Positions 1,260 through 14,862 of a stretch of 64,000 nucleotides of DNA are shown piece after piece. A model generated the notes under the pieces. It saw only the letters and a list, made by a program, of their open reading frames with translations. It was not told the origin of the DNA and ran no database searches. The stretch's first letter is position 1. Each line of letters opens with the position of its first letter. This stretch comes from Bacteroidota bacterium (lineage in GTDB: Bacteria > Bacteroidota > Bacteroidia > Bacteroidales > NBLH01), in NCBI GenBank assembly GCA_025361565.1, contig JANYKN010000125.1:157171-221170 (forward strand), in the 5' to 3' direction. The position numbers were made by a program, and so were the translations under genes.

Positions 1260-3613
1260 TAAACATCATATAAAGATCGCACACTTATTTTATCTTCAAG
1301 TTTTTGTTCCGGATATTCCGGAACAAATTCAGTTATTTTCTGCTCTCCTGGCAATAAATCAAAATAATTATCAGAAAAATTTCCTTTATCTTCAGGAAAA
1401 TCCAGAAAAACATTTTTGGCTAAATAATCCGTCATGATTTGAATTATAAATTTGTCTTTCTTTTTTGTAATATTGAATACAACATCAGGATCAGGCAAAT
1501 CTAAATCCTTTACTTCTTTAAAATATACATTTTCTCTAGCTATTTCAGTACTTCCTGAAAGAAGTTTAATATGGATCATTGTTTTATTTTTAACGCTATC
1601 AGCCAAAAATCTGCTTAAATCTTGACTATAAACAATTTCGCTGCTTAATGCTTTTACATTTACCTCCATATCATCTGCCCAAATTTCGTTACCATAAAAA
1701 TCTATGAGATTGATACTTAATTTCATTTTTCTAGATTTGATTTCATCCGATACTATAAATACCTTTATTGTATTGTTTTCCATTTGCCCCGAAATCAACA
1801 CAGGCGCATAAACCCTTTTCAAATAATAATGCAATGCTTTCCATCTTCCATAATAATCAATACCAGAAGGAGTTATCGCAGGCCAATAATCGTTTAATTG
1901 CTGATAAATGGTTCCCATATATTTTCCTCTTTCACTACGATAACTTTTTATTGCTCCAGCCATGTTTTCAGCTTGTAGCAATTGGCTTACATAAACATAT
2001 GGAATAATATGTCCTGGTATTTTATATTTACTAAATATGTTTTTTTGTATGAGTTCAAATCCTCCCGGATATTTTTGATGAGCTTTTAACTGATTAGAAT
2101 AACGATAGAGCTCTTTTTCTTCAATAAAACTGCGCATACTAGAAAGTAGAGGATATGACAGATTGCCATGCAAAATATATTGTCCAAAATTTTGTGGACT
2201 ATTTTCAATTTCAAAAGTGTCTGATTTTAAAGGTAAAAATGCCCTTCCACTATCGATATTTTCAACAATCTGTTTCAATAAGTCTCTTTTCAACGAATTA
2301 AGCTGAACATTGATTTGCCTATTTTCCTTATTATTATCAATAGAATTTATTTGTTCATAATCACACCATAAAGCCAAAGAAGGATGGTTTCTCAGTCTCT
2401 CTATATTTTGCATTACTTGCAATTTTAACTTCTCTAAATGAACAACTTCTGAAGTATCAAATTTTTCATATTTCATAAAATCTTGCCAAATAAGTATCCC
2501 GTTTTCATCGCAGAGATCATAAAACTCATCATTCTCATAAATGCCACCTGACAAAACTCTCAACATATTTATATTAACTTTTCTAGCACTTTGAATAAGA
2601 TGTTTATATTGGTCACTTTTCACTCGCTGTGAATAAATATCCTGAGGTAGATAATTGGCGCCTTTTATAAATATAGGAATATCATTTAGCTTAAAATAAG
2701 AACCACTTCCATGCTCAACATCTTTTTGCACAAGCTCCAGCTTTCTGAAACCAAAACGCAATGTTCTTGCATCAATAACCTTGCTTTTATGCTCAACTTG
2801 TAAATTGAAATCATAAAGATTGGCTTTACCTAAGCCATTAGTCCACCAAAATTTCGGTTTATCTATTTTTATCCTTAACTCAAAGTAATTAATGCCTTTT
2901 TTAACAACAACTGAAGTGTCAATCCAATTTTTTTCTAATCCTGATATTTTTAAATCAACATTTTGAACTATATCAGATTGCAAATTTATTTTCACCTTAA
3001 CAATTGCCCTTTCTCTGTTTAACGATTCCTGAAAAAATTGATAATCTGCGATTTTAATAACATCCCATGCTTTTATATGGATGGGTTGCAAAATTCCACA
3101 TCCAAAAAAAAGTGAATCAATATGAAAGCAAAATTGATGTGGCGAATGGAACCTTACAGTTAATATATTATGATCTCTCTTAAGGATTTTTTTACATTCT
3201 ATTATCTTTTCCAAATGTCTACTACCACCAACACTGATAACAGAATCATTCAAAATGACTATTGAGCATAAATCTAATCCGCTGAATATTAATTCAATAT
3301 GTCTTTTCATATAAAATTCTTCATTCATATTAAAAACGGTTTGATATTCCCATTCACTCTTTTTAATCCATTCAAGTCTTTCAGTATTGATCCCAAAAAA
3401 AGGATCGGAAATTTTATGATTTGCAAATAAATCAGTAACAATTGAACCAGGCACAGTTGCAAGCATTTCCTCATTTTTGCCAATCTGCTTAAAGCTCCAC
3501 CTGCTATTCAATTCTTGGTCAACAACTTCCATTTTTTCATCATTATTTCTACAACTAATAAAAGAAGTAAAAAGGACCAACAGGCATACGATATTTTTGA
3601 GTAAATGCTTCAT
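1256..3613 (-). CDS. GH2 beta-mannosidase-like lipoprotein, probably catalytically dead
   Basis: 785 aa from the ATG at 3613, chosen over an upstream TTG because a lipoprotein signal (MKHLLKN...FISC) starts there. Domain order matches GH2 beta-mannosidases: N-terminal jelly roll with ATVPGSIVTDLF and DPFFGIN, an Ig-like domain, a TIM barrel with GANYLPQDIYS and GGIYENDEFYDLCDENG, and MGTIYQQLNDYWP. The family acid/base motif WCGNNE reads WCDYEQ here (residues 416-421), so Gln sits where the catalytic Glu belongs. The nucleophile motif SEYGFQS aligns to GNLSYPL, putting Asn484 at the Glu position. I infer a surface or periplasmic mannoside-binding or scaffolding pseudoenzyme. The reading frame is intact, which argues against simple decay. 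Confidence 0.8.
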   Translation of the reverse strand: MKHLLKNIVCLLVLFTSFISCRNNDEKMEVVDQELNSRWSFKQIGKNEEMLATVPGSIVTDLFANHKISDPFFGINTERLEWIKKSEWEYQTVFNMNEEFYMKRHIELIFSGLDLCSIVILNDSVISVGGSRHLEKIIECKKILKRDHNILTVRFHSPHQFCFHIDSLFFGCGILQPIHIKAWDVIKIADYQFFQESLNRERAIVKVKINLQSDIVQNVDLKISGLEKNWIDTSVVVKKGINYFELRIKIDKPKFWWTNGLGKANLYDFNLQVEHKSKVIDARTLRFGFRKLELVQKDVEHGSGSYFKLNDIPIFIKGANYLPQDIYSQRVKSDQYKHLIQSARKVNINMLRVLSGGIYENDEFYDLCDENGILIWQDFMKYEKFDTSEVVHLEKLKLQVMQNIERLRNHPSLALWCDYEQINSIDNNKENRQINVQLNSLKRDLLKQIVENIDSGRAFLPLKSDTFEIENSPQNFGQYILHGNLSYPLLSSMRSFIEEKELYRYSNQLKAHQKYPGGFELIQKNIFSKYKIPGHIIPYVYVSQLLQAENMAGAIKSYRSERGKYMGTIYQQLNDYWPAITPSGIDYYGRWKALHYYLKRVYAPVLISGQMENNTIKVFIVSDEIKSRKMKLSINLIDFYGNEIWADDMEVNVKALSSEIVYSQDLSRFLADSVKNKTMIHIKLLSGSTEIARENVYFKEVKDLDLPDPDVVFNITKKKDKFIIQIMTDYLAKNVFLDFPEDKGNFSDNYFDLLPGEQKITEFVPEYPEQKLEDKISVRSLYDVY

Positions 3614-3794
3614 TTCAATAAAATCCAATAAATTAGAAATAATTGTTTAGTCCAAAATCAGACATTTTTACTTTTAATTGATAAATAGAAATCAAAAATA
3701 GATTATATTCGTGATTAAGAATATTTTCCAAAAAAAAACAAATCATTAAAATAATTAAAAAGGTAAACTATACAATATCAATAATTTATAATAT

Positions 3795-4382
3795 ATGCTA
3801 AAAGAATTATTAAAATTTAACAGAAGTTACCGAAGGTTTTATGAAAATGAGAATATTTCAAGTGAAACATTAGTTGAACTAATTGATTTTGCTTGCCTTT
3901 CGCCATCTCCTAAAAATTTACAAGCGTTGAAATTCATTCTTTCAAATGAAGTGAATTTAAACAACAAAATTTTTGCTACCCTGGCATGGGCAGGTTATTT
4001 GAACGATTGGAAAGGACCTGAGCCCGGTGAAAGACCATCGGCATATATTATTATTTTGGGTGATAAAACAATTTCAAAAGATTTTATTAAAGATTATCTG
4101 CCAACAGGCTCAGGAATTATTGCCCAATCCATTTTATTAGGTGCCGCTGAAAAAGGAATTGGTGGATGCATAATTGCTGCAATACAAAGAAAAAAACTCT
4201 ATGAACAATTGAATTTAAGCGAAGATTTTGAAATTATGTTGATATTAGCCCTTGGCAAACCTAAAGAAATTGTTGTAATTGACAATGTGGACGAAACGGG
4301 CAATATTGAATATTGGCGTGATGAGAACCAAATACATCATGTACCAAAACGGAAATCGGAAGATATTATAATACATCTATAA
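3795..4382 (+). CDS. Nitroreductase family protein
   Basis: 195 aa, usual size for a compact nitroreductase fold. N-terminal RSYRRF is the typical arginine-rich FMN-phosphate contact, followed by SPSPKNLQALKF, a variant of the S-P-S-x-x-N-x-Q cofactor motif. Residues 106-125 (GSGIIAQSILLGAAEKGIGG) form the usual central helix, and the family's conserved ALGKP turn follows. The enzyme would use FMN and NAD(P)H to reduce nitro, quinone or other electrophilic substrates in the cytoplasm; the real substrate cannot be read from sequence. It stands alone, divergent from the GH2 gene with a 180-base AT-rich spacer. A second, unrelated-looking nitroreductase lies at 45666. Confidence 0.85.
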   Translation: MLKELLKFNRSYRRFYENENISSETLVELIDFACLSPSPKNLQALKFILSNEVNLNNKIFATLAWAGYLNDWKGPEPGERPSAYIIILGDKTISKDFIKDYLPTGSGIIAQSILLGAAEKGIGGCIIAAIQRKKLYEQLNLSEDFEIMLILALGKPKEIVVIDNVDETGNIEYWRDENQIHHVPKRKSEDIIIHL

Positions 4383-4600
4383 AAATTAGAAATAACTCAA
4401 AATTATTATCAGTTTCCAAAAATCATTATATCAACTAAATACTACAATAAGCTTCTCATTTTCAGTTATCTAAAAAGAAGTAATGACAAATATTCTACTC
4501 ATTTTTTTCTAAATAAGATTGTTTAATAATAAATTTTCCAATTAATTTTCTTACCGTGCAACTATTCGCACTAACTTTAGGTCATATTGTTTGAAACGCT

Positions 4601-5182
4601 ATGATAAGTGAAGATCAATTAATCGACAGATGTAGAAAGAATGATCGGACTGCTCAGAAAATCCTTTACGACAGATACGCTTCCATAATGTTTGGAATTT
4701 GTCTAAGGTATGTTTTTGAACGTTCCGAGGCTGAAGATATTTTGCAGGAAGGTTTCTTGAAAATATTCACAAAAATAAATGAATTTGAAGGAAGAGGTTC
4801 CTTTGAAGGTTGGATGAAAAGGGTATTTATTAACACTGCTATTACATTATATCATAAAAATTCGAAACACAACAAAAATCATTACAACATTGATGATGTG
4901 CATGTTGTAAAAAGTGAGAAACCGGTATTTGATGATTCAGAGTTCACAAATGAAGAATTGATAAATATTATTCATAGTCTGCCAAAAGGATACAAGCTAG
5001 TCTTTAACATGTATGCTATTGAGGGATATAAACATAAAGAAATAGCAGAGATGTTAAACATTGACATTAATACCTCAAAATCGCAGTACTCAAGAGCTAA
5101 AAAGCTGATTAGAAAAAAACTTGAAATTTATGGCCAAGTTTCTATTGGAATTGATAATGATGAAGATGAAAATGAAGAATAA
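4601..5182 (+). CDS. ECF-type RNA polymerase sigma factor
   Basis: 193 aa with both sigma-70 regions of an ECF factor. Region 2 spans about residues 20-85 (LYDRYASIMFGICLRYV, EAEDILQEGFLKIF, FEGWMKRVFINTAI). Region 4 spans about 125-175 (SLPKGYKLVFNMYAIEGYKHKEIAEML, then a recognition helix with TSKSQYSRAKKLIRKKL). The tail is acidic (NDEDENEE). The next gene, 137 bases on in the same direction, encodes a membrane protein with a short cytoplasmic N-terminus, the position where an anti-sigma partner is expected. In Bacteroidota such sigma factors often regulate envelope genes, including type IX secretion; the regulon here is unknown. Confidence 0.92.
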   Translation: MISEDQLIDRCRKNDRTAQKILYDRYASIMFGICLRYVFERSEAEDILQEGFLKIFTKINEFEGRGSFEGWMKRVFINTAITLYHKNSKHNKNHYNIDDVHVVKSEKPVFDDSEFTNEELINIIHSLPKGYKLVFNMYAIEGYKHKEIAEMLNIDINTSKSQYSRAKKLIRKKLEIYGQVSIGIDNDEDENEE

Positions 5183-6672: not shown

Positions 6673-7383
6673 TTATTTAGTCATAATATTTATATTATTC
6701 ATTAAATCTTCTTTATAAGATTTAGCAATAGGGATACTTTTATTCTCACCTTTTATTTTCATAATAATGGCATTATCCTCTATCATTTCAATTTTAGCCA
6801 AATTTACAATATATGACCTGTGAACCCTTGCAAACATTTTAAGTGGGAGTTTATTGATAATAGCTTTCATCGTGAAGTGAATAGTATACTTACTAGTAAA
6901 CGTATTGATTATCACATAATTCTCCAATGCTTCAACCCATAAAATTTCTTCATATTTTAAGCGAACCAATGAGGAAGAACTGCTTTTAATAAAAATTCCA
7001 TCCTTTCCTGTAAGCTGTTCCTGAAACTCTTTGTGTTTTTTACTAGCTTTTTCAACTGCCTTAAAAAACCTGGTAAAGGAAATTGGTTTTAAGAGGTAAT
7101 CTGTTACATCATACTCAATTGCTTCAAGAGCATACTTATCTTTTGCTGAAATAACAATAACCTGTGGAAGGTTTTTTAAGGTCTTTATAAATTCTACACC
7201 GCTCATTTCAGGCATTTCGATATCTAAAAATATTAAATCGATATCATTCTCTGTCTGCATGGCGTTTAATGCATCAACCGCACTATTATAAGCGCCTCTA
7301 AATTCCAGAAATTCGGTTTTATTAACATATTTCTCAATCAATAATCTTGAAACATTATCATCATCTATTACAATGCAATTCAT
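6673..7383 (-). CDS. LytTR-family response regulator, orphan
   Basis: 236 aa from the ATG at 7383 (a TTG two codons upstream is less likely because MNCIVIDDD is the usual receiver start). The receiver domain covers about 1-115: acidic pair near residues 8-9, phospho-acceptor Asp54 in LIFLDIEMP, a serine in VISAKD, and the conserved lysine in LLKPIS. A LytTR DNA-binding domain spans about 130-230, with IFIKSSSSSLVRL, ENYVII and the hallmark FARVHRSYIVN. No histidine kinase is adjacent, so its partner is elsewhere. LytTR regulators bind direct repeats upstream of targets, often for surface or secreted products. It is convergent with the sigma/PKD pair; that adjacency may or may not be meaningful. 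Confidence 0.93.
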   Translation of the reverse strand: MNCIVIDDDNVSRLLIEKYVNKTEFLEFRGAYNSAVDALNAMQTENDIDLIFLDIEMPEMSGVEFIKTLKNLPQVIVISAKDKYALEAIEYDVTDYLLKPISFTRFFKAVEKASKKHKEFQEQLTGKDGIFIKSSSSSLVRLKYEEILWVEALENYVIINTFTSKYTIHFTMKAIINKLPLKMFARVHRSYIVNLAKIEMIEDNAIIMKIKGENKSIPIAKSYKEDLMNNINIMTK

Positions 7384-7988
7384 AGTCAATAGGTTTTATA
7401 TTTAGATGTACAGAAATAACTTAGTATTGTTAAGCCTTGAATTTAACAAAGTTAATAATCTGAAACAAATAAAGAAACTTGCAATACAATATTTTATTTA
7501 CAAAAGTTTGCAATACATTTAAACATAAATTGTAAGTTACTGAAATAATGCGAATTAAAGTATATAATTCTTACCAAATTAAATAATTATTACGATCTAA
7601 ATTAATGTGCATTAAAAAAAATGGTTGACAAAATGTCTAAAAACGATTTTGGCATATTTAAAAAATTCTTATACAATCATTAAATTTGAATTGCCAGTCA
7701 AAATTATTTGAATACTCTGCTTGGAGTAATTATTTTTCGGAAATATATGCTTACCTGAGTAAGAACATTCAAATTGCTTAAAATTTATAGTTTTAAAGGG
7801 GTTTAAATAAACTTGATAAACGTTTGTTAAGAATATTAAACTGATTCTGTTCGCAAAAATAATTAATATCTAAAATTGCAAACAAAATAAAATCTCTTAA
7901 CTTGGACATTTTGTCAAATTATACAATTTATAACCAGAATATAAGTTATAATAGAAATCTTAGAATTAAATATACAATACATCAGAGT
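7384..7988. other. AT-rich spacer between divergent genes
   Basis: About 600 bases separate the divergent LytTR and LRR genes. I see no ORF with coding character, no RNA gene and no strong hairpin. Both promoters must lie here, but I could not assign a convincing TAnnTTTG element. Confidence 0.6.
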
Positions 7989-9425
7989 ATGAAAAAGTAC
8001 ATGTTTCCATTATTTATCTCATTTTTTATTAGTTTTTTGAATGTTACCGCCCAAGATAGATTACTTGATGAAGATGAATTGGTAAATGCGGATGAATTTC
8101 TTTCACTCGATGAAGCTTTAAAAAATCCAGAAAAAGTATATAAATTGAATTTGAGTGACATGCAATTGGACGAGTTTCCAAGAGAAGTGTTACAGCTCTA
8201 TAATTTACAGATGCTCGATTTGTGGAAAAACAATATTGAAAAAATACCAGCTGATATTCAACTGTTATCACACCTACAATATTTGAATTTGGGAAATAAC
8301 AAAATGAAAGAACTTCCGAAAGAAATTGGTAGTTTGATAAATTTAATTGCACTTGATTTAGAAGATAATAAACTTGAAAAATTACCTGACGAAATTGGCA
8401 ATCTGGTTTTTATTCAAAATTTAGCTTTGGGTAATAATAAATTAAAAGAAATACCTGAATCGGTTGGCGAATTAAAAAATTTAAAAGATCTGAGCATCTG
8501 GGAAAATCAACTAGAAAAGTTACCGGAATCATTTGGGAAGCTCAAAAACCTTCAAAGTTTAGATATTTCTGAAAATAAAATAAAGAAGTTGCCAGTCTCA
8601 TTCGGATTACTTCTCAACCTTAAAATCTGCGATCTCCGTTCTAATGCACTAGAAAAATTTTCAATTCAAACAGAATTGTTAGGTTCTTTGAGATATTTTG
8701 ACTTGTCAAATAACAAAATTAATTCACTATCAAATTCCATATCAAATTTAAAAGCACTTCAAATGCTTTTTCTGCAAAATCAAATTGATGATAAACAAGA
8801 ACAATGCTTGAAAAATTTACCATCCGGAATTGGTTTTCTGAGAAACTTGCAACAAATCAACATTCGTAATACAGGTATCACTGAACTGCCAGTTGAGATT
8901 GGAGACCTTCAGGAACTTCAAATACTCGATGCCTCTGAGAATAACTTAGTTGACATACCATCCGTGATTAGTAAACTTAAAAACTTGAAAGAACTTCACC
9001 TTTCTTCAAATCAGCTAAAAACAATTCCTCCAGCATTAGGTAAATTGCCTAACCTTATAATATTAAACCTAATGAATAATTCCATCAATGAAATTTCATC
9101 ATTAATTAATAAATCTACTAATATTGAAGAGATAAACCTTTCAAAAAATAAACTTACAATTTTCCCTGAATCATTTTATCTTATGACTAATTTGAAAAAA
9201 CTTGATTTTTCGGATAATCAAATAAGGACAATACCATTGGGCATTAACAATTTAAAAAATTTAAAAGAACTGAACCTAGAAGGAAATAAACTAACAAGCA
9301 TTCCTGCTGAAATAGGAAAACTTAGTTCACTTAGTAATTTGAACCTACGAAACAATGAATTTTCTGATAACCAGATAGATGATATTAAAAAGCTTTTTTC
9401 TGAAGATGTAAATATTAGGTTCTAA
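7989..9425 (+). CDS. Exported leucine-rich-repeat protein
   Basis: 478 aa from the ATG at 7989; this start gives a clear Sec signal (MKKYMFPLFISFFISFLNVTAQ), whereas the upstream TTG start does not. After a short acidic linker the rest is about 18 LRRs of 23 residues in the bacterial/plant-like consensus L..L..LDLS.N.L..LP..IG.L. One repeat carries an insertion near LFLQNQIDDKQEQCLKNL. No capping domain, membrane segment, lipobox or recognisable type IX sorting domain is present; the protein ends abruptly at VNIRF. LRR solenoids bind proteins or glycans, so an extracytoplasmic binding role is likely, but the partner is unknown. Confidence 0.88.
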   Translation: MKKYMFPLFISFFISFLNVTAQDRLLDEDELVNADEFLSLDEALKNPEKVYKLNLSDMQLDEFPREVLQLYNLQMLDLWKNNIEKIPADIQLLSHLQYLNLGNNKMKELPKEIGSLINLIALDLEDNKLEKLPDEIGNLVFIQNLALGNNKLKEIPESVGELKNLKDLSIWENQLEKLPESFGKLKNLQSLDISENKIKKLPVSFGLLLNLKICDLRSNALEKFSIQTELLGSLRYFDLSNNKINSLSNSISNLKALQMLFLQNQIDDKQEQCLKNLPSGIGFLRNLQQINIRNTGITELPVEIGDLQELQILDASENNLVDIPSVISKLKNLKELHLSSNQLKTIPPALGKLPNLIILNLMNNSINEISSLINKSTNIEEINLSKNKLTIFPESFYLMTNLKKLDFSDNQIRTIPLGINNLKNLKELNLEGNKLTSIPAEIGKLSSLSNLNLRNNEFSDNQIDDIKKLFSEDVNIRF

Positions 9426-9830
9426 ACAAACGTGAAAATATTAATATTTAAGTATTGCATAAAAGGTATAATTTAAAAATCAATTCTGGTAATCAAGTAC
9501 CTTATTTTGATATAATTAATTCCTCATTTTTATCCCATCTAACATTTTTATTTGTCTGATATATTTAATATTTAGATTGATTATAAATTAGTTTTTAATT
9601 GGAATATTCACTTATCTCTATCTATCAAAAACCCCTTAAAAGTATTACATTTACGAAGCTTTATCTTTAAAATCATTCATAAAATATTTTCAAAGTATTT
9701 AGAGTTTTAGGCAATCTATTAAATAAGATTTAATCATATTAATATATCATTTCTTTAAATTCCACGTTTTAATAATCAATTTGAGAATCACTTCTACAAA
9801 TAATCCAATGAAAAGTACTAAACATTTATT
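9426..9830. other. AT-rich spacer
   Basis: About 400 bases of very AT-rich sequence before the heme-lipoprotein cluster. No coding ORF, hairpin or RNA signature recognised. It should contain the promoter of the downstream cluster. Confidence 0.5.
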
Positions 9831-10202
9831 ATGAAAAAAGAATTTATTTTTTATTCTGTGGTAATTGGCTTTTTTAGTGTAATCATGTATTCGTGCGTAC
9901 ATAGTTTACCAAATGCCAATGATATGGCACCAGTTTGCTTTACATCCGATGTATTGCCAATTTTCCAGGCCAACTGTGGAATTGCAGGTTGCCATAGTAG
10001 CGGAAGTGATTTAGACTTAACCAGTTACCCATCAATAATGAATAGCATAACAGCATATGATCCAAAAAACAGCCCAGCTTATCAGGCTATTATTTCAAAG
10101 TGGGTCAATGCAATGCCGCCAGACAAAGCAATCCCAGAAAATGCCCGAACGATAATTCGAATTTGGATTGAGCAAGGCGCAAAGGAGAACTGCCCTAACT
10201 AA
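9831..10202 (+). CDS. Heme-binding lipoprotein with CX4CH motif
   Basis: 123 aa. Lipoprotein signal ends at MYSC (Cys22). The mature part has SDVLPIFQANC followed by a CX4CH site (Cys49, Cys54, His55) and a possible axial methionine in NAMPPD (Met95). This resembles the short cytochrome-like domains common in Bacteroidota and Planctomycetes, where the heme site has four residues between cysteines. It is first of a co-directional set and only 20 bases before a second heme lipoprotein with a standard site. Likely periplasmic-facing electron carrier or heme-based sensor; covalent heme attachment at CX4CH is inferred, not certain. Confidence 0.78.
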   Translation: MKKEFIFYSVVIGFFSVIMYSCVHSLPNANDMAPVCFTSDVLPIFQANCGIAGCHSSGSDLDLTSYPSIMNSITAYDPKNSPAYQAIISKWVNAMPPDKAIPENARTIIRIWIEQGAKENCPN

Positions 10203-10222
10203 TCATCCCACAATTAAAATAT

Positions 10223-10603
10223 ATGAAAATGAAATATTTATTAATTCCGTTGTTCTTATTTTTTCTATTGCAAGCCTGCTTTTACGATAAAGAAGAACTT
10301 TTATATATGACAAACAATAATACTTGTGATACTGTAAATGTGACCTACAACGCCACCATTTATCCAATACTTGCAACTTACTGTTTATCGTGCCATGGAA
10401 ATACTTCTGCAGCAAGCAATGGCAATGGCATTAAGCTTGAAAACTATTCTGATCTAAAAATAAGTGTAGACAATGGTAAATTTAGAAGTGCTGTCTTTCA
10501 TGTTGGAACAGCATCGCAAATGCCTAAAAACGCTGGAATATTAAATGACTGCAATTTAAATCAGATAGACATTTGGCTAAAAGCTGGAGCACTTAACAAT
10601 TAG
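10223..10603 (+). CDS. c-type cytochrome lipoprotein with CXXCH motif
   Basis: 126 aa. Lipobox LLQAC (Cys19). A single heme c site CLSCH (Cys54, Cys57, His58) follows YNATIYPILATY, the same layout as the upstream lipoprotein. A candidate axial ligand is Met100 in SQMPKN, and the C-terminal helix ends IDIWLKAGALNN like its neighbour's IRIWIEQGAKEN. The two genes look like diverged duplicates with different heme motifs. It sits 20 bases after the first and 11 bases before the DUF5777 barrel gene, so one transcript is probable. Role: electron transfer at the periplasmic face of a membrane, partner unknown. Confidence 0.85.
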   Translation: MKMKYLLIPLFLFFLLQACFYDKEELLYMTNNNTCDTVNVTYNATIYPILATYCLSCHGNTSAASNGNGIKLENYSDLKISVDNGKFRSAVFHVGTASQMPKNAGILNDCNLNQIDIWLKAGALNN

Positions 10604-10614
10604 ATAAATATATT

Positions 10615-11496
10615 ATGAAGAAAATTATAATCCTTTTTCTGCTAAGTTTTGTAGGAATTAATATTTTGGCCCAAGATATTGATGATTTATTGAACGAAGA
10701 GTCAACTGAAACAGTCAATTATGCTGATGCAACTTTTAAATCGACCCGGATTATAAACGGGCAATCTGTAATGCAATTACACAAAGAACATCTTGATCTT
10801 AGAATTTCTCACCGTTTTGGAGTTTTGAGCAATGGAATATCAGATTTTTTTGGGCTTGACAAATCTTCTATCAGAATTATTTTAGATTATGCATTAACAG
10901 ATTGGTTAACAGTTGGAATTGGAAGAAGCTCATTTGATAAAACCTATGATGGCTCTCTTAAATTTAGAATTTTAAGACAAAGTTCAGGAAAATCAGTTAT
11001 GCCAATATCATTAAGCTATTTTACAAGTTTTGAAGCTTTTACAAGCGATTTTAATGATTTAGCGCATACAAACCATACTTCATCAAGGTTCAGTTATGTA
11101 CATCAAATGCTGGTTGCCCGTAAGTTCAGTGATAATTTTTCATTACAGTTAAGTCCTACTTTGGTTCACAGAAATTTAGTACCTACCGTATATGATATGA
11201 ATGATTTGTTAGCAGTTGGCATTGGTGGACGATATAAAATTACTAAAAGGATGTCAATTAATGCTGAGTATTTTTATTCTATCCGGTCAAAAAGAAGCCC
11301 AGTAGTATATCACGATCCACTGTCAATTGGTATCGATATTGAAACTGGCGGTCATGTTTTTCAATTTATGCTTACAAATTCATCTGTAATGTTTGATGGA
11401 GGATTTATTTCCGGCCAAAATAATGATGATTTTTTCAAAGGCGATATACATCTCGGCTTTAATATATCAAGAATTTTTTCTTTTAAAAAACAATAA
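10615..11496 (+). CDS. DUF5777 family outer-membrane beta-barrel protein
   Basis: 293 aa with a Sec signal (cleavage near ILAQ). Family landmarks are ATFKSTRIINGQSV, LDLRISHRFG, the turn FFGLDKSSIRI, TDWLTVGIGRSSF and the closing strand HLGFNISRIFSF. Alternating hydrophobic strands through the whole length indicate an outer-membrane beta barrel. Function of DUF5777 is unknown; the genomic company of heme lipoproteins before it and YceI after it suggests a role in electron transfer or in handling a lipophilic ligand across the outer membrane. Spacing is 11 bases upstream and 16 bases downstream, supporting an operon. Confidence 0.88.
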   Translation: MKKIIILFLLSFVGINILAQDIDDLLNEESTETVNYADATFKSTRIINGQSVMQLHKEHLDLRISHRFGVLSNGISDFFGLDKSSIRIILDYALTDWLTVGIGRSSFDKTYDGSLKFRILRQSSGKSVMPISLSYFTSFEAFTSDFNDLAHTNHTSSRFSYVHQMLVARKFSDNFSLQLSPTLVHRNLVPTVYDMNDLLAVGIGGRYKITKRMSINAEYFYSIRSKRSPVVYHDPLSIGIDIETGGHVFQFMLTNSSVMFDGGFISGQNNDDFFKGDIHLGFNISRIFSFKKQ

Positions 11497-11512
11497 CTAA
11501 AATTTGAACACA

Positions 11513-12070
11513 ATGAAAAAGTATATTCTAAATATTATTTTAATAGCTTTAGTAAGCAATAACATTTTTTCACAAACATCCTATTTTACAAAAAGTGGTA
11601 AAATCGATTTTTTTTCAAAAACAGCAGTTGAAAACAATGAAGCAAGTAATAACCAAGTTGTTAGTACTTTAAAAACTGAAACTGGCGAACTTAATTTCGG
11701 AGTACTCATTAAATCTTTCAAATTCAAAAATGCTTTGATGGAAGAGCATTTTAATGAGAACTATATGGAAAGTACTAAATTTCCAAAAGCTACATTTAAA
11801 GGTAAGATTACAAATATTACAGCTATAAATTTTGGTAAAAATGGAACTTACACAGCAAATGTAACAGGAGAACTTATGATACACGGAGTAACAAAAGAGA
11901 TAAGTACAACCGCCCAAATTGAAGTGAAAGACAAAACTTTTAATGCAGTATCATCTATAATAGTTAAACCTGCTGACTACAATATTCAGATTCCTGAATT
12001 AGTGAGGGAAAAAATTGCGAAAGATGTTTCAATTGACATAAACATTAACTACGAAGTATACAACAAATAA
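11513..12070 (+). CDS. YceI family periplasmic protein
   Basis: 185 aa from the ATG at 11513 (the TTG three codons earlier adds nothing). Signal peptide MKKYILNIILIALVSNNIFSQ. The lipocalin-like YceI fold is seen in KSGKIDFFSKTA, ESTKFPKATFKG, GELMIHGVTKEI and the final strand IDININYEVYNK. YceI proteins bind isoprenoid quinones or similar long-chain lipids in a barrel cavity. Following two heme lipoproteins and a barrel, it fits a module moving electrons or a quinone-like molecule through the envelope, but that link is inference. Confidence 0.9.
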   Translation: MKKYILNIILIALVSNNIFSQTSYFTKSGKIDFFSKTAVENNEASNNQVVSTLKTETGELNFGVLIKSFKFKNALMEEHFNENYMESTKFPKATFKGKITNITAINFGKNGTYTANVTGELMIHGVTKEISTTAQIEVKDKTFNAVSSIIVKPADYNIQIPELVREKIAKDVSIDININYEVYNK

Positions 12071-12170
12071 AACGATATCATTGACATTAAAAATATTGAA
12101 TCTATAAGGCGGCATAACTCATACAGTGAATATGTTGCCCATTTAATGAATAATTGTAAAATATCAGAAT

Positions 12171-12605
12171 ATGAAAAAAACATATAAAATCGCTTTAATG
12201 GTTGTTGCTTTATCGGTAATTGCTGGTTTGAGCGTAAATTACTACGTTTTTCACAAAAAGCATAAGAACACATTCGACTTAAAAGCTGAGTATACTATAT
12301 CTGCAGATAATTTGTTCAAGGAATTTGAAACAAACGAAGACAGTGCTAATTCAAAATATCTTGGAAAAATTATCGAAGTAGAAGGCAAAATTCTTGGTAT
12401 TAAGGAATTTTCAGGAAGTTACCAGATATCTTTTGTTGATGAAGTTTTTGGAGTTACTTGCATGATTGACAGCAATTATGCGGTACAGCAAAAAAAAGAA
12501 ATCTTAAATATTAAAGCGGGAAATATGATTAAAATAAAGGGCCAGTGCAATGGTTATCTTTCTGATGTAAAACTAGACAGGTGTATAATTGCAGAAGAAA
12601 AATAA
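12171..12605 (+). CDS. Membrane-anchored OB-fold (tRNA_anti-like) protein, copy 1
   Basis: 144 aa. An N-terminal uncleaved helix (about 6-26) anchors an OB-fold domain of the tRNA_anti-like family: KYLGKIIEVEGKI, then a strand to VTCMID, and GNMIKIKGQCNGYLSDVKLDRCII. Cysteines at 97, 126 and 138 lie in positions shared with the two following paralogues, which suggests a disulfide in the periplasm. This family is common in Bacteroidota and despite its name has no shown RNA role; an exported OB fold more likely binds protein, lipid or a small ligand. It follows YceI by 100 bases and is closed by its own terminator. Confidence 0.78.
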   Translation: MKKTYKIALMVVALSVIAGLSVNYYVFHKKHKNTFDLKAEYTISADNLFKEFETNEDSANSKYLGKIIEVEGKILGIKEFSGSYQISFVDEVFGVTCMIDSNYAVQQKKEILNIKAGNMIKIKGQCNGYLSDVKLDRCIIAEEK

Positions 12606-12941
12606 TTCTGCATTTAATAAATAATATATTTTTTATGAATACAATTGGGTATTCATATTTCTGACCACATCTCCTGAAAATATTAATTTAGAGCATATTA
12701 CAAGCAACCAAGGAATTGCATTGTAATATGCTTTTTCTTTTTATTTGGCCGTAGAAATATTGTGTTTGAATTTTGAGAATTAAAATGATAAATGCCAGAA
12801 AATCTATAATCATTATCAGTACTAAATGAAATATTAAATACTTTAGAATTTTTGATATATGGCTTAATAAAATCAACATTTTCATTTACTTTTGTACTGC
12901 ATACTTTACTATTAATTGAAATTTCTACAAAATCACTTTTT
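12606..12941. other. Spacer with a terminator, no gene
   Basis: 336 bases between OB-fold copies 1 and 2. It holds the hairpin at 12692-12732 and an AT-rich stretch that presumably carries the promoter for copy 2. Open frames on the minus strand here have no signal, motif or homology I recognise. Confidence 0.5.
12692..12745 (+). terminator. Rho-independent terminator
   Basis: A 12-base inverted repeat (12692-12703 and 12721-12732, AGCATATTACAA/TTGTAATATGCT) with an inner GCAA/TTGC pairing, followed by a T-rich tract. It lies 87 bases after OB-fold copy 1. Confidence 0.75.
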
Positions 12942-13334
12942 ATGAAAACAAGAAGATTAAACCTTTTCATCATTTTCAGCCTGATCCTGTTAATGGCATG
13001 TTCCTCAAATAAAATGGGACTTGATAATCCAGTAAGTGCATCAATTTTGGGTTCAGAATATTCTGCAGATATACAAAAAGGTGATAAAAGTTACAAAGGC
13101 AAATATCTGACTGTAGTTGGAGAAATTTCGCAATACTATCAAAACAAATTTCAGGAAAACATATTAATTATAATGGATAAAGATAAAAAACAAGGCGTTA
13201 AATGTACTTTAATTAAATCCAATAAGCCATTGGAGCGGCCATTTAAATTAGGAGAAACCATTAAAGTAAATGGAAAATGCGCTGGTTTTGACGAATTTGT
13301 CTTACTCAGTGGCTGTATTATTTTAAAAGATTAG
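12942..13334 (+). CDS. OB-fold (tRNA_anti-like) lipoprotein, copy 2
   Basis: 130 aa from the ATG at 12942; an upstream in-frame TTG would add 30 residues that bury the lipoprotein signal, so the ATG is preferred. Lipobox LLMAC (Cys20). The OB-fold domain has GKYLTVVGEIS, VKCTLIKSN, LGETIKVNGKCAGF and LLSGCIIL, with cysteines 88, 113 and 125 matching the three in copy 1. Here the anchor is a lipid instead of a transmembrane helix. Expression is likely separate from copy 1 because a terminator lies between them. Function unknown. Confidence 0.78.
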   Translation: MKTRRLNLFIIFSLILLMACSSNKMGLDNPVSASILGSEYSADIQKGDKSYKGKYLTVVGEISQYYQNKFQENILIIMDKDKKQGVKCTLIKSNKPLERPFKLGETIKVNGKCAGFDEFVLLSGCIILKD

Positions 13335-13822
13335 AAACCATTCTATTTTAAAATTGGAAAGCTAAGTTAAAAGTAATCAGAAATTTTTGTCGAAAGATCG
13401 TATCCTTTCATCTAAATGATAGCCGCTGATGCTTAATTTGATACTAAAATTACTACTGTAAGTAAATTTAAGCAGAAAATAATTATTGAAAAGTTGAACC
13501 TAAATCCTTGAACTTTGAATCAAGTCCGATTATAAACTTATTAACAAAAAAAAACTACAATTATTAATAAAATTTATAGTCTCAACATTATTAAATAGAT
13601 AGAAAAGAGAATGGAATTTATTTGAAAAAAGACAGTGTTAATTCGCAAGTCAATTCAATCGAATATTTTTTATTTGGCAACAATTTTGCAATACTCTAGA
13701 AGAAGAAAAAATCGCTGTAATTAGTTCTTTTATAAATATTTACGATATTGTATTTGATAACAAAAACACATTACAGCAAATTAACTTTAGAAGACATTTT
13801 GTAAAAAACAACTAGAGTATTC
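13335..13822. other. AT-rich spacer
   Basis: About 490 bases between OB-fold copies 2 and 3. No coding frame of useful length, hairpin or RNA element recognised. An ancestral fourth gene could have decayed here, but I see no residue of one. Confidence 0.45.
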
Positions 13823-14257
13823 ATGAAAAAAGCTATCCTTTATATTGTTTTATTTGTATCAGGTATTTTGATAGGATCTTTGATCTTTATTGATAAAGAC
13901 TTTCTAAAAGCCAAACTGGACCCTAAGGAAAATTCATATCTTGCAGCAAATAAACCTGTTGAACACAACCTGGAAGAGTTTAAACAATCCGCTTACCAGA
14001 TGTTGGGAAAGTCAATTATTGTAAAAGGGGATATTCTAGAAGTTTATAAAAATCAATACAATGAATCAGTAGTTTACTTAAAAGACTATAACATTCCACT
14101 GACAATTAATTGCTCATTGTATAATTCTGAAATTCAGATTAGCGAGCCATTTAGGATAGGAGAGACTATAAGCCTTCAAGGAAAATTCACTGAACTTGGA
14201 GAAGAAATGCATCTTGATGATTGCAGAATTATATCAAGAACTGAAAGGGAAAGATAA
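13823..14257 (+). CDS. Membrane-anchored OB-fold (tRNA_anti-like) protein, copy 3
   Basis: 144 aa with an N-terminal transmembrane helix (about 5-23) and an OB-fold domain: GKSIIVKGDILEVY, LTINCSLYNS, IGETISLQGKF and LDDCRII. Two of the three cysteines seen in the paralogues are kept (97 and 134), while the middle one is Phe122. Loss of exactly the middle cysteine supports pairing of the first and last. The three copies are much diverged, so the duplication is old. A terminator follows 16 bases after the stop. Confidence 0.76.
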   Translation: MKKAILYIVLFVSGILIGSLIFIDKDFLKAKLDPKENSYLAANKPVEHNLEEFKQSAYQMLGKSIIVKGDILEVYKNQYNESVVYLKDYNIPLTINCSLYNSEIQISEPFRIGETISLQGKFTELGEEMHLDDCRIISRTERER

Positions 14258-14273
14258 TTACTTTAAATTTGAC

Positions 14274-14300
14274 AAAGCCGGAACTATACCGGCTTTTTTT
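14274..14300. terminator. Terminator hairpin between convergent genes
   Basis: Stem AAAGCCGG/CCGGCTTT (14274-14281 and 14289-14296) with a 7-base loop and a T tract on the plus strand. The minus-strand PAP2 stop codon (14284-14286) lies inside the loop, so the hairpin is shared with that coding end. Confidence 0.8.
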
Positions 14301-14862
14301 GTTCCAATATCTTTTTTGAAGAAAAAATGTATGCCTGATAAGTTAAAAATCCAATAAAAATGCCAAAAAGTGCACCAACTAAAACATCAAAAGGATAATG
14401 TACACCTAAATAAATTCTAGAGTACGAAACTACTGTTGCCCAAATAAAAATAGAAATAGAAAATATTCTATTTCTAAAGAAAAGAGCAGAAAACATAGCC
14501 AATGCAAAAGTATTAGCTGCATGAGAAGAAACAAATCCAAATTGTCCCCCACACTCATTATTAATAAGGTGAATATAATTGGCTATTTCAGCATTATGGC
14601 ACGGTCTGAGACGTTGAACCGTATTTTTAAATATATGGACAGAGCCTTGATCTGCGAAAACAAGAAGCATGATTAAGAAAAACAAAGTTAAAAATCCTTC
14701 CCATTTTAATTTTCTGAAAATAAAATACAAGAGAATTGCATAAAGTGGAATCCATGTTTTGATGGCACTGATGATATACATCAAACTATCGAAAAATGAA
14801 TTGTGGTGACCATTAAAGAATAGAAACCACCGTGTATCTAGTCCAGTTAAAAAATCAATCAT
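14284..14862 (-). CDS. PAP2-family membrane phosphatase
   Basis: 192 aa, about six transmembrane helices. The three-part PAP2 signature is present: K-x6-RP as KNTVQRLRP, SSHAANTF in place of PSGH, and SRIYLGVHYPFDV (SR-x5-H-x3-D). The family dephosphorylates lipid phosphates such as undecaprenyl pyrophosphate, phosphatidylglycerophosphate or lipid A phosphates at the periplasmic face of the inner membrane; the substrate is not readable. It is last in the hpt-adk-obg series, 18 bases after obg, so probably cotranscribed. Confidence 0.9.
   Translation of the reverse strand: MIDFLTGLDTRWFLFFNGHHNSFFDSLMYIISAIKTWIPLYAILLYFIFRKLKWEGFLTLFFLIMLLVFADQGSVHIFKNTVQRLRPCHNAEIANYIHLINNECGGQFGFVSSHAANTFALAMFSALFFRNRIFSISIFIWATVVSYSRIYLGVHYPFDVLVGALFGIFIGFLTYQAYIFSSKKILEQKKPV

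Follow-up and report, generated by a model that had tools for sequence, protein, structure and literature searches.

A 64,000-nucleotide stretch of a Bacteroidota bacterium genome (contig JANYKN010000125.1), called the window here in its whole length, carries at 9831-14257 a row of seven genes encoding two putative heme lipoproteins (CytA and CytB), a DUF5777 protein, a YceI-family protein and three OB-fold proteins (OB1, OB2 and OB3). The first four of these genes, which are tightly spaced, and the product of OB1 as an optional member on balance probably make up a conserved module for electron transfer in the outer membrane and the periplasm. The redox role of this module is well supported; its quinone handling, the direction of its electrons and its purpose we infer. 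At the level of gene content, the core made of DUF5777 and a carrier, usually accompanied by YceI, is kept across the phylum sample, and the carriers are exchanged for other one-electron proteins. The original prediction, made from the letters of the window, had described seven co-directional genes for exported or anchored products and had limited the tight spacing to the first four. All seven open reading frames (ORFs) were found at that place and on that strand, and the short gaps were confirmed, with 20 bases between CytA and CytB, 11 between CytB and DUF5777 and 16 between DUF5777 and YceI (ATG at 11513), the looser ones being of 100 (YceI-OB1), 336 (OB1-OB2) and 488 bases (OB2-OB3).

To describe the neighbourhood, DUF5777 genes were collected from 296 Bacteroidota genomes, 115 of which have one, as compared to none of 14 control genomes. 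From the 149 places found, 100 were taken with their flanks, picked by score and genome spread and not randomly, two of them from the window's own genome; with 17 named loci (nine from Aquimarina, hence non-independent) and the window itself the sample came to 118. Five loci had no DUF5777 gene under our simple ORF caller (L078, L099, L117, L149 and L150) and two had marginal DUF5777 matches (L151 and L152), which left 111 usable loci. The caller misses some short genes: the L110 cytochrome was located by hand, and a 360-base gap in L087 may hide another gene. A heme lipoprotein of the CytA/CytB family is encoded near DUF5777 in 92 of the 111 loci (counting the one located by hand), YceI lies within five genes in 92/111 and an OB gene within five genes in 38/111. 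The arrangement is also regular: 97 of 111 cytochrome-family genes are located one to five genes upstream of DUF5777 and 14 downstream, with none further away, and of the 109 YceI genes 75 are upstream of it and 22 downstream at a distance of at most five genes, the remaining 12 being more remote and nine of these 12 belonging to loci with a second DUF5777. Similarly, 34 of 49 OB genes are up to five genes upstream and 7 downstream, the 8 more distant ones all being in loci with a second DUF5777. Loci with both YceI and a cytochrome occur on branches deep in the DUF5777 tree, in 19 family groups as counted by eye. The converse test was made on 15 whole genomes deliberately chosen among DUF5777 carriers. 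These have 34 DUF5777 genes, and 30 of 85 YceI genes (0.4 expected) and 14 of 17 tRNA_anti-like genes (0.08 expected) were found at most 5 kb from one of them. That the genes are adjacent by chance, or through shared export only, is scarcely credible: the gaps between OB1, OB2 and OB3 would fit such a view, but the association is far above expectation and extends across deep branches of the tree for the cytochromes, DUF5777, YceI and OB1. Random variation of the DUF5777 neighbours, which had been named as the observation that would speak against a joint role, was looked for, and what was found is recurrence of the carriers, of YceI and, in a third of the loci, of the OB gene.

CytA (9831..10202, + strand) is a predicted lipoprotein (Cys22) with a CX4CH motif at residues 49-55 (bases 9975-9995) and a candidate axial ligand, Met95, in an MPP sequence. 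CytB (10223..10603, + strand), also a predicted lipoprotein (Cys19, CFYDKEEL), has a CXXCH motif at residues 54-58 (bases 10382-10396) with a Met-Pro downstream. Both therefore carry the sequence features of c-type cytochromes, a CXnCH motif followed by a candidate axial ligand, and both are predicted to be monoheme. Neither reached a curated Pfam cut-off (PSCyt1, E=0.004, 18.2 bits versus 22; PccH, E=0.006). The nearest described proteins are PSCyt1 and LIC11213-type lipoproteins, which CytA matches below the curated cut-offs (E=0.004 and, for LIC11213_lipo, E=4e-5); the match of LIC11213_lipo to a two-domain relative from locus L055 reaches 1e-14, still below the curated cut-off. Unlike in these lipoproteins, the CX4CH spacing is frequent in the DUF5777-linked carriers. 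A single iterated profile started from CytA served both cytochromes, as the one built from CytB strayed to DUF5777 proteins and was dropped. Its 115 members near DUF5777 comprise 64 with CXXCH, 33 with CX4CH only, 14 with both and four without a motif (L013, L014, L017 and L020); the latter resemble the Lipoprotein_15 protein of L010 and were treated as false. This L010 gene (5706-6551), encoding a secreted repeat protein, adjoins the cluster, and similar genes are present in other Aquimarina loci. Many profile members have a Met-Pro after the heme motif and a W-I/V...GA stretch at the C-terminus, and 91 of 114 carrier-family proteins are called lipoproteins by a simple rule. Because some loci fuse the CX4CH and CXXCH domains in one chain, as in the 237-residue protein of L055, the CytA/CytB pair looks like a split form. 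Larger assemblies were also observed: L009 (5798-7384) encodes a 529-residue lipoprotein with five tandem heme-motif domains (four CXXCH, one CX4CH), and in L011 (6624-7412), L082 (5499-6323) and L067 (7767-9242) the cytochrome domains stand behind what appear by eye to be repeated extracellular-type domains. The genome also encodes COX1 and a CcsA-type assembly gene.

The function of the carriers is best read from the loci in which they are replaced. A heme lipoprotein is missing from 19 loci, and 12 of these encode a Rieske protein or a cupredoxin instead. A cytochrome is present in 1/10 loci with a Rieske protein, compared to 91/101 of the others (Fisher 1.7e-7), and in 3/15 loci with either a Rieske protein or a cupredoxin, compared to 89/96 elsewhere (5e-9), p values that are overstated as the rows are related. 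One example of each domain was confirmed by Pfam (Rieske, E=1e-9; copper-binding, E=2e-8), the Rieske ligand motif is found in 9/10 Rieske loci and the Rieske distribution needs at least five changes on the DUF5777 tree. The L116 cupredoxin was counted although it is six genes away. Our first profiles for the cupredoxin, DOMON and 544-residue proteins each gave 30-32 matches, probably through the tail used by the type IX secretion system (T9SS); remade without the tail, they gave 5, 7 and 2. As Rieske and cupredoxin proteins stand in for the heme lipoprotein, the job of the carrier is very likely electron transfer, and this replacement pattern is its strongest sign.

A second substitution concerns YceI, which is found in 0/15 of the loci where DUF5777 has an NrfD, Fe-S, EB_dh or diheme cytochrome gene as neighbour and in 92/96 of the others. 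When the proteins of one such locus, L112, were compared with NCBIfam, the nearest family to the Fe-S protein was DsrO, followed by tetrathionate/arsenate reductase subunits and then QrcC, and the nearest to the NrfD protein was DsrP, followed by a hydrogenase subunit and then QrcD, all below cut-off; QrcC and QrcD belong to menaquinone reductase. Distant relatives of the DsrOP and QrcCD genes lie near DUF5777 in one YceI-less clade, whereas the window cluster has no such genes. The second half of the module may thus consist of some quinone-handling component, the NrfD part of this argument coming from one clade. The electron- or quinone-handling role put forward in the original prediction is accordingly upheld on its redox side, with Rieske, cupredoxin, diheme and NrfD/Fe-S proteins in the same neighbourhood; its quinone side rests on knowledge of the YceI family and on that one NrfD clade. 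The window's own genome has a locus of related content (L054, C47:44000-58687), in which a third DUF5777 gene and a heme lipoprotein gene come ahead of Fe-S/NrfD genes in tandem and of genes for small cytochromes; the locus further encodes a multiheme protein and a regulator of the Crp type. The CcsA-type cytochrome assembly match, in an open frame of 1039 codons, is about 15 kb from this cluster. A Crp/Fnr-like gene directly precedes DUF5777 in four loci, and the Crp-type genes of these loci and of C47 weakly fit redox control.

The DUF5777 protein (10615..11496, + strand) has a signal peptide and matches Pfam DUF5777 (PF19089) over its full length (E=8e-95, 317 bits versus a cut-off of 23.1). 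AlphaFold2, run with 27 sequences, predicts a 12-strand outer-membrane barrel with a mean predicted local distance difference test score (pLDDT) of 73 and a predicted template modelling score of 0.71. The model resembles FapF (Z 17.7, root mean square deviation 3.7, 212 aligned), NalP, KdgM and the COG4313 channel, a likeness to many barrels that speaks for the architecture of DUF5777 and not for its function. Three residues stand out: His66 and His247 are kept in 110/111 loci and Arg286 in 108/111, at a median pairwise identity of 32% (minimum 18%). By residue alternation in the model, they seem to be in the lipid-facing phase of the neighbouring strands 1, 11 and 12. The one exception among the loci, L130, resembles nine other DUF5777 copies that adjoin full clusters in named genomes. 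All ten are devoid of the two His and of the Arg, and none of them has a carrier in its gene run, compared to 92/111 for the copies with both His. The run was defined here by same strand and gaps <450 bases, which is stricter than the five-gene rule, and under this rule some of the 19 carrier-less DUF5777 copies do have a carrier nearby. In Aquimarina and Flavivirga, His/Arg-less copies are part of a second OB-YceI-DUF5777 triple that has no carrier of its own and is divergent from the full cluster (L007, L008, L010, L012-L014, L017, L020 and L022, around 1800-4900).

The fold of the barrel also bears on the suggestion that the system takes up and oxidises a hydrophobic compound, with DUF5777 as a small-molecule channel, YceI as periplasmic carrier and the cytochromes as electron acceptors. 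The many matches of the model do include FadL-type channels, KdgM/NanC porins and the COG4313 channel, but those to autotransporters and FapF are equally good, so that the fold is little informative, and no recurring oxidising enzyme was recognised among the neighbour clusters, not all of which were identified; we consider this reading very unlikely. In MtrCAB and other porin-cytochrome conduits, heme proteins work with a barrel of about 26 strands that encloses a multiheme cytochrome. The cluster has in common with them the heme proteins and the outer-membrane barrel and differs in the 12 predicted strands and the single-heme domains, and an MtrAB-like conduit was rejected on the predicted strand number (model pLDDT 73). 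No MtrB-type entry was among the matches listed, the best 50 per structure comparison, which alone proves nothing. The route for electrons through the envelope that had been suggested for the cluster did not gain support: no more than 12 strands are predicted for the barrel, and computation does not fix the membrane side of the cytochromes.

The YceI-family protein (11513..12070, + strand) is secreted and matches Pfam YceI (PF04264) with E=3e-17 (64 bits versus a cut-off of 23.7). Of 30 YceI genes linked to DUF5777, 28 score 42-71 bits against this family and two score 112 and 170, whereas 42 of 55 unlinked genes are above 71.4; the linked YceI proteins are therefore mostly a divergent subfamily. 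With a profile of the linked YceI, all three matches in the window's own genome fall at its two YceI-type DUF5777 clusters, and a fourth, ordinary YceI is located elsewhere. Solved YceI relatives are only distant (1y0g, E=4e-5). YceI proteins bind isoprenoids or ubiquinone-8, and the solved relatives and GNA1030 hold a prenyl quinone, according to the accessible part of PMC9113575.

From these elements a mechanism can be proposed. First, CytA and CytB would each bind one c-type heme, as their motifs predict. Second, they would act as one-electron carriers, a role mirrored by the Rieske and cupredoxin replacements elsewhere. Third, DUF5777, as a predicted 12-strand barrel, would be the membrane partner of the carriers, with the conserved His66, His247 and Arg286 as its putative functional site. 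Fourth, because of the biology of the YceI family and because the loci with NrfD/Fe-S genes have no YceI, YceI would carry a prenyl quinone or a similar isoprenoid that is oxidised or reduced by the carrier at the barrel. Fifth, the OB protein may be an accessory assembly or stabilising factor. A more specific version, which we hold unlikely and put forward as speculation, makes DUF5777 a redox-coupled outer-membrane protein whose His66/His247/Arg286 site is a docking or cofactor site where the monoheme carrier meets the YceI-held prenyl quinone, electrons at the menaquinone level being exchanged at the outer membrane in a system that has no multiheme conduit.

The same proteins could instead protect outer-membrane lipids, quinol-bound YceI quenching lipid peroxyl radicals and the cytochromes removing or delivering electrons, much as has been suggested for the BcnA-LcoA system of Burkholderia. 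YceI is indeed paired with heme carriers in the cluster, and BcnA, itself a YceI protein, has a genetic link to a cytochrome b561, its mutants showing more lipid peroxidation (as described in part of PMC9113575); however, the partners here are c-type heme lipoproteins, Rieske proteins and an outer-membrane barrel instead of an inner-membrane b561, and both the related clade with NrfD/Fe-S genes and the C47 cluster with its Crp-type regulator look respiratory rather than devoted to repair. Lipid protection is for these reasons possible, if rather unlikely. An electron outlet to the cell surface, in which outer-leaflet carriers exchange electrons with partners outside the cell, for instance cupredoxin or DOMON proteins secreted by the T9SS, is a doubtful explanation that we regard as quite unlikely. 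T9SS sorting domains are present on one cupredoxin (L075) and on one DOMON-like neighbour (L090; DOMON below cut-off), but DOMON proteins are found in only 7 loci and cupredoxins in 5. In many carriers the lipid Cys is followed by acidic residues (e.g., CYYDNEEELY), with a mean of 2.19 in eight positions compared to 1.65 for other lipoproteins of the same loci. This stretch resembles the Bacteroidetes lipoprotein export signal (PMC5080379, in the part available), a likeness that is suggestive only as the optimal signal is C-X-K-(D/E)2-X, whereas the acidic peaks of the carriers are at +4, +7 and +8 and there is no general Lys at +3. In Shewanella, a YceI-based path has been put forward for the reduction of extracellular dye (PMC8981235, likewise in part), but the 12-strand barrel of our model would be too narrow for an MtrAB-type conduit. 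An exported ankyrin-repeat gene and a DOMON-like gene lie beside the module in seven loci (L090, 4824-6096; L069, L079, L083, L087, L091 and L107).

Several results weigh against the electron-transfer module that we favour. When the Rieske/cytochrome exchange was tested on independent pairs it was not significant (5 pairs, median p 0.5), the cytochrome having changed oppositely in 2.2 pairs on average with no difference in 2.8, and neither a cytochrome, nor a Rieske protein, nor a cupredoxin was found in 7/111 loci. The pair test of NrfD-diheme neighbours against YceI was not significant either (4 pairs, median p 0.25); the NrfD loci are confined to one clade of ten (100/100), with the C47 DUF5777 gene of the window's own genome at its base, and in L112, the one locus scanned, tetrathionate/arsenate reductase subunits outscore QrcC and a hydrogenase subunit outscores QrcD. 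COX1 is present in all 115 genomes with DUF5777 and in 170/181 of the others (285/296), and its pairing with DUF5777 is uninformative. The barrel model has a mean pLDDT of 73, with averages of 41-53 over the first 50 residues, and the His-less DUF5777 copies look alike and may represent one event. Finally, the window YceI covers only positions 24-149 of 150 in the Pfam model, and we know of no ligand for the DUF5777-linked YceI subfamily.

OB1 (12171..12605, + strand) and OB2 (12942..13334, + strand) match Pfam tRNA_anti-like (PF12869; cut-off 23.5 bits) with 79.7 (E=2e-22) and 50.1 bits (E=3e-13), and OB3 (13823..14257, + strand), at 15.8 bits (E=0.011), is below this cut-off yet falls within the same iterated profile. 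The confident OB1 model (pLDDT 92.7) combines an OB fold with an N-terminal membrane helix; OB2 was classed as a lipoprotein, and OB3 has a hydrophobic N-terminal stretch predicted to be a membrane helix. The best solved match of OB1 is 3f1z (Z 12.2); CcmE, at Z 8.9, is tied with the OB domains of tRNA synthetases. The CcmE heme chaperone has a conserved heme-binding His in its C-terminal tail. The residues that are invariant or nearly so across 25 OB sequences are M1, L48, G72, C97, K123, G124, C126, G128 and C138, with no His, and a CcmE-like role for OB1 was discarded on account of the unspecific fold similarity and of this missing residue. A second full cluster of the same genome, OB-Cyt-YceI-DUF5777-YceI (L053, C169:14000-33000), precedes a gene for a protein of 1065 residues that has regulator-propeller and SpoIIE domains. 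In this cluster there is a single OB gene, directly beside the cytochrome. For this reason OB2 and the divergent OB3 look like extra copies; they are outside the conserved core, and for these two chance adjacency is possible. The membership of three OB-fold proteins in the cluster, as first proposed, is accordingly retained for OB1, an optional member, and withdrawn for OB2 and OB3.

YceI with a redox partner is already known. In Burkholderia, BcnA-LcoA joins a YceI protein to a cytochrome b561 in a proposed antioxidant role (PMC9113575), and in Shewanella a menaquinone-YceJ-YceI electron path to outer-membrane reductases was proposed from co-expression (PMC8981235), a precedent that in principle speaks for YceI as a mediator of electrons. 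As far as the available parts of these two sources go, both systems resemble the cluster in placing a YceI protein beside an envelope heme protein and differ in using an inner-membrane b-type cytochrome, with no outer-membrane barrel, c-type heme lipoprotein or Rieske/cupredoxin swap. The b561-type families were searched among the Pfam matches of the nine genes at 6673-14254, and none was found there. Cbp2D of Cellvibrio japonicus joins a YceI-like domain (X158) and c-type cytochrome domains in one protein, of which X183 can reduce lytic polysaccharide monooxygenases; from what the accessible part of PMC8981238 describes, it differs from our cluster in its carbohydrate-binding module, its link to cellulose use and the lack of a barrel gene. 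Our searches of the open-licence literature found no description of DUF5777 or of this gene set, which is weak as evidence of absence; as far as they show, no description exists there of the outer-membrane barrel, the pair of c-type lipoproteins, the carrier swaps or the His-less paralogue. A study of Riemerella under iron limitation names one YceI gene as regulated, which is of no use for the present question. The present data give a functional context to DUF5777, to the exported tRNA_anti-like proteins, to the DUF5777-linked YceI subfamily and to the CX4CH lipoproteins. If YceI does carry quinone, they would point to an outer-membrane route for quinone electrons that does not need large porin-cytochrome conduits, and the redox role can be tested directly through the swap of cytochrome for Rieske protein or cupredoxin.

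At the borders of the cluster, a terminator-like hairpin with a T run follows OB3 on the + strand (14274..14296). It is a weak call: it is the sole one of its kind on the + strand in 9400-14400, and both strands together have 3 sites, compared to 1.4 (standard deviation 1.2) in shuffled sequences. The upstream neighbour (7989-9425) encodes a secreted leucine-rich repeat protein of 478 residues, as far as seen unrelated to the cluster. Downstream, the genes are on the opposite strand and encode what we take to be a PAP2-like protein and then housekeeping proteins.

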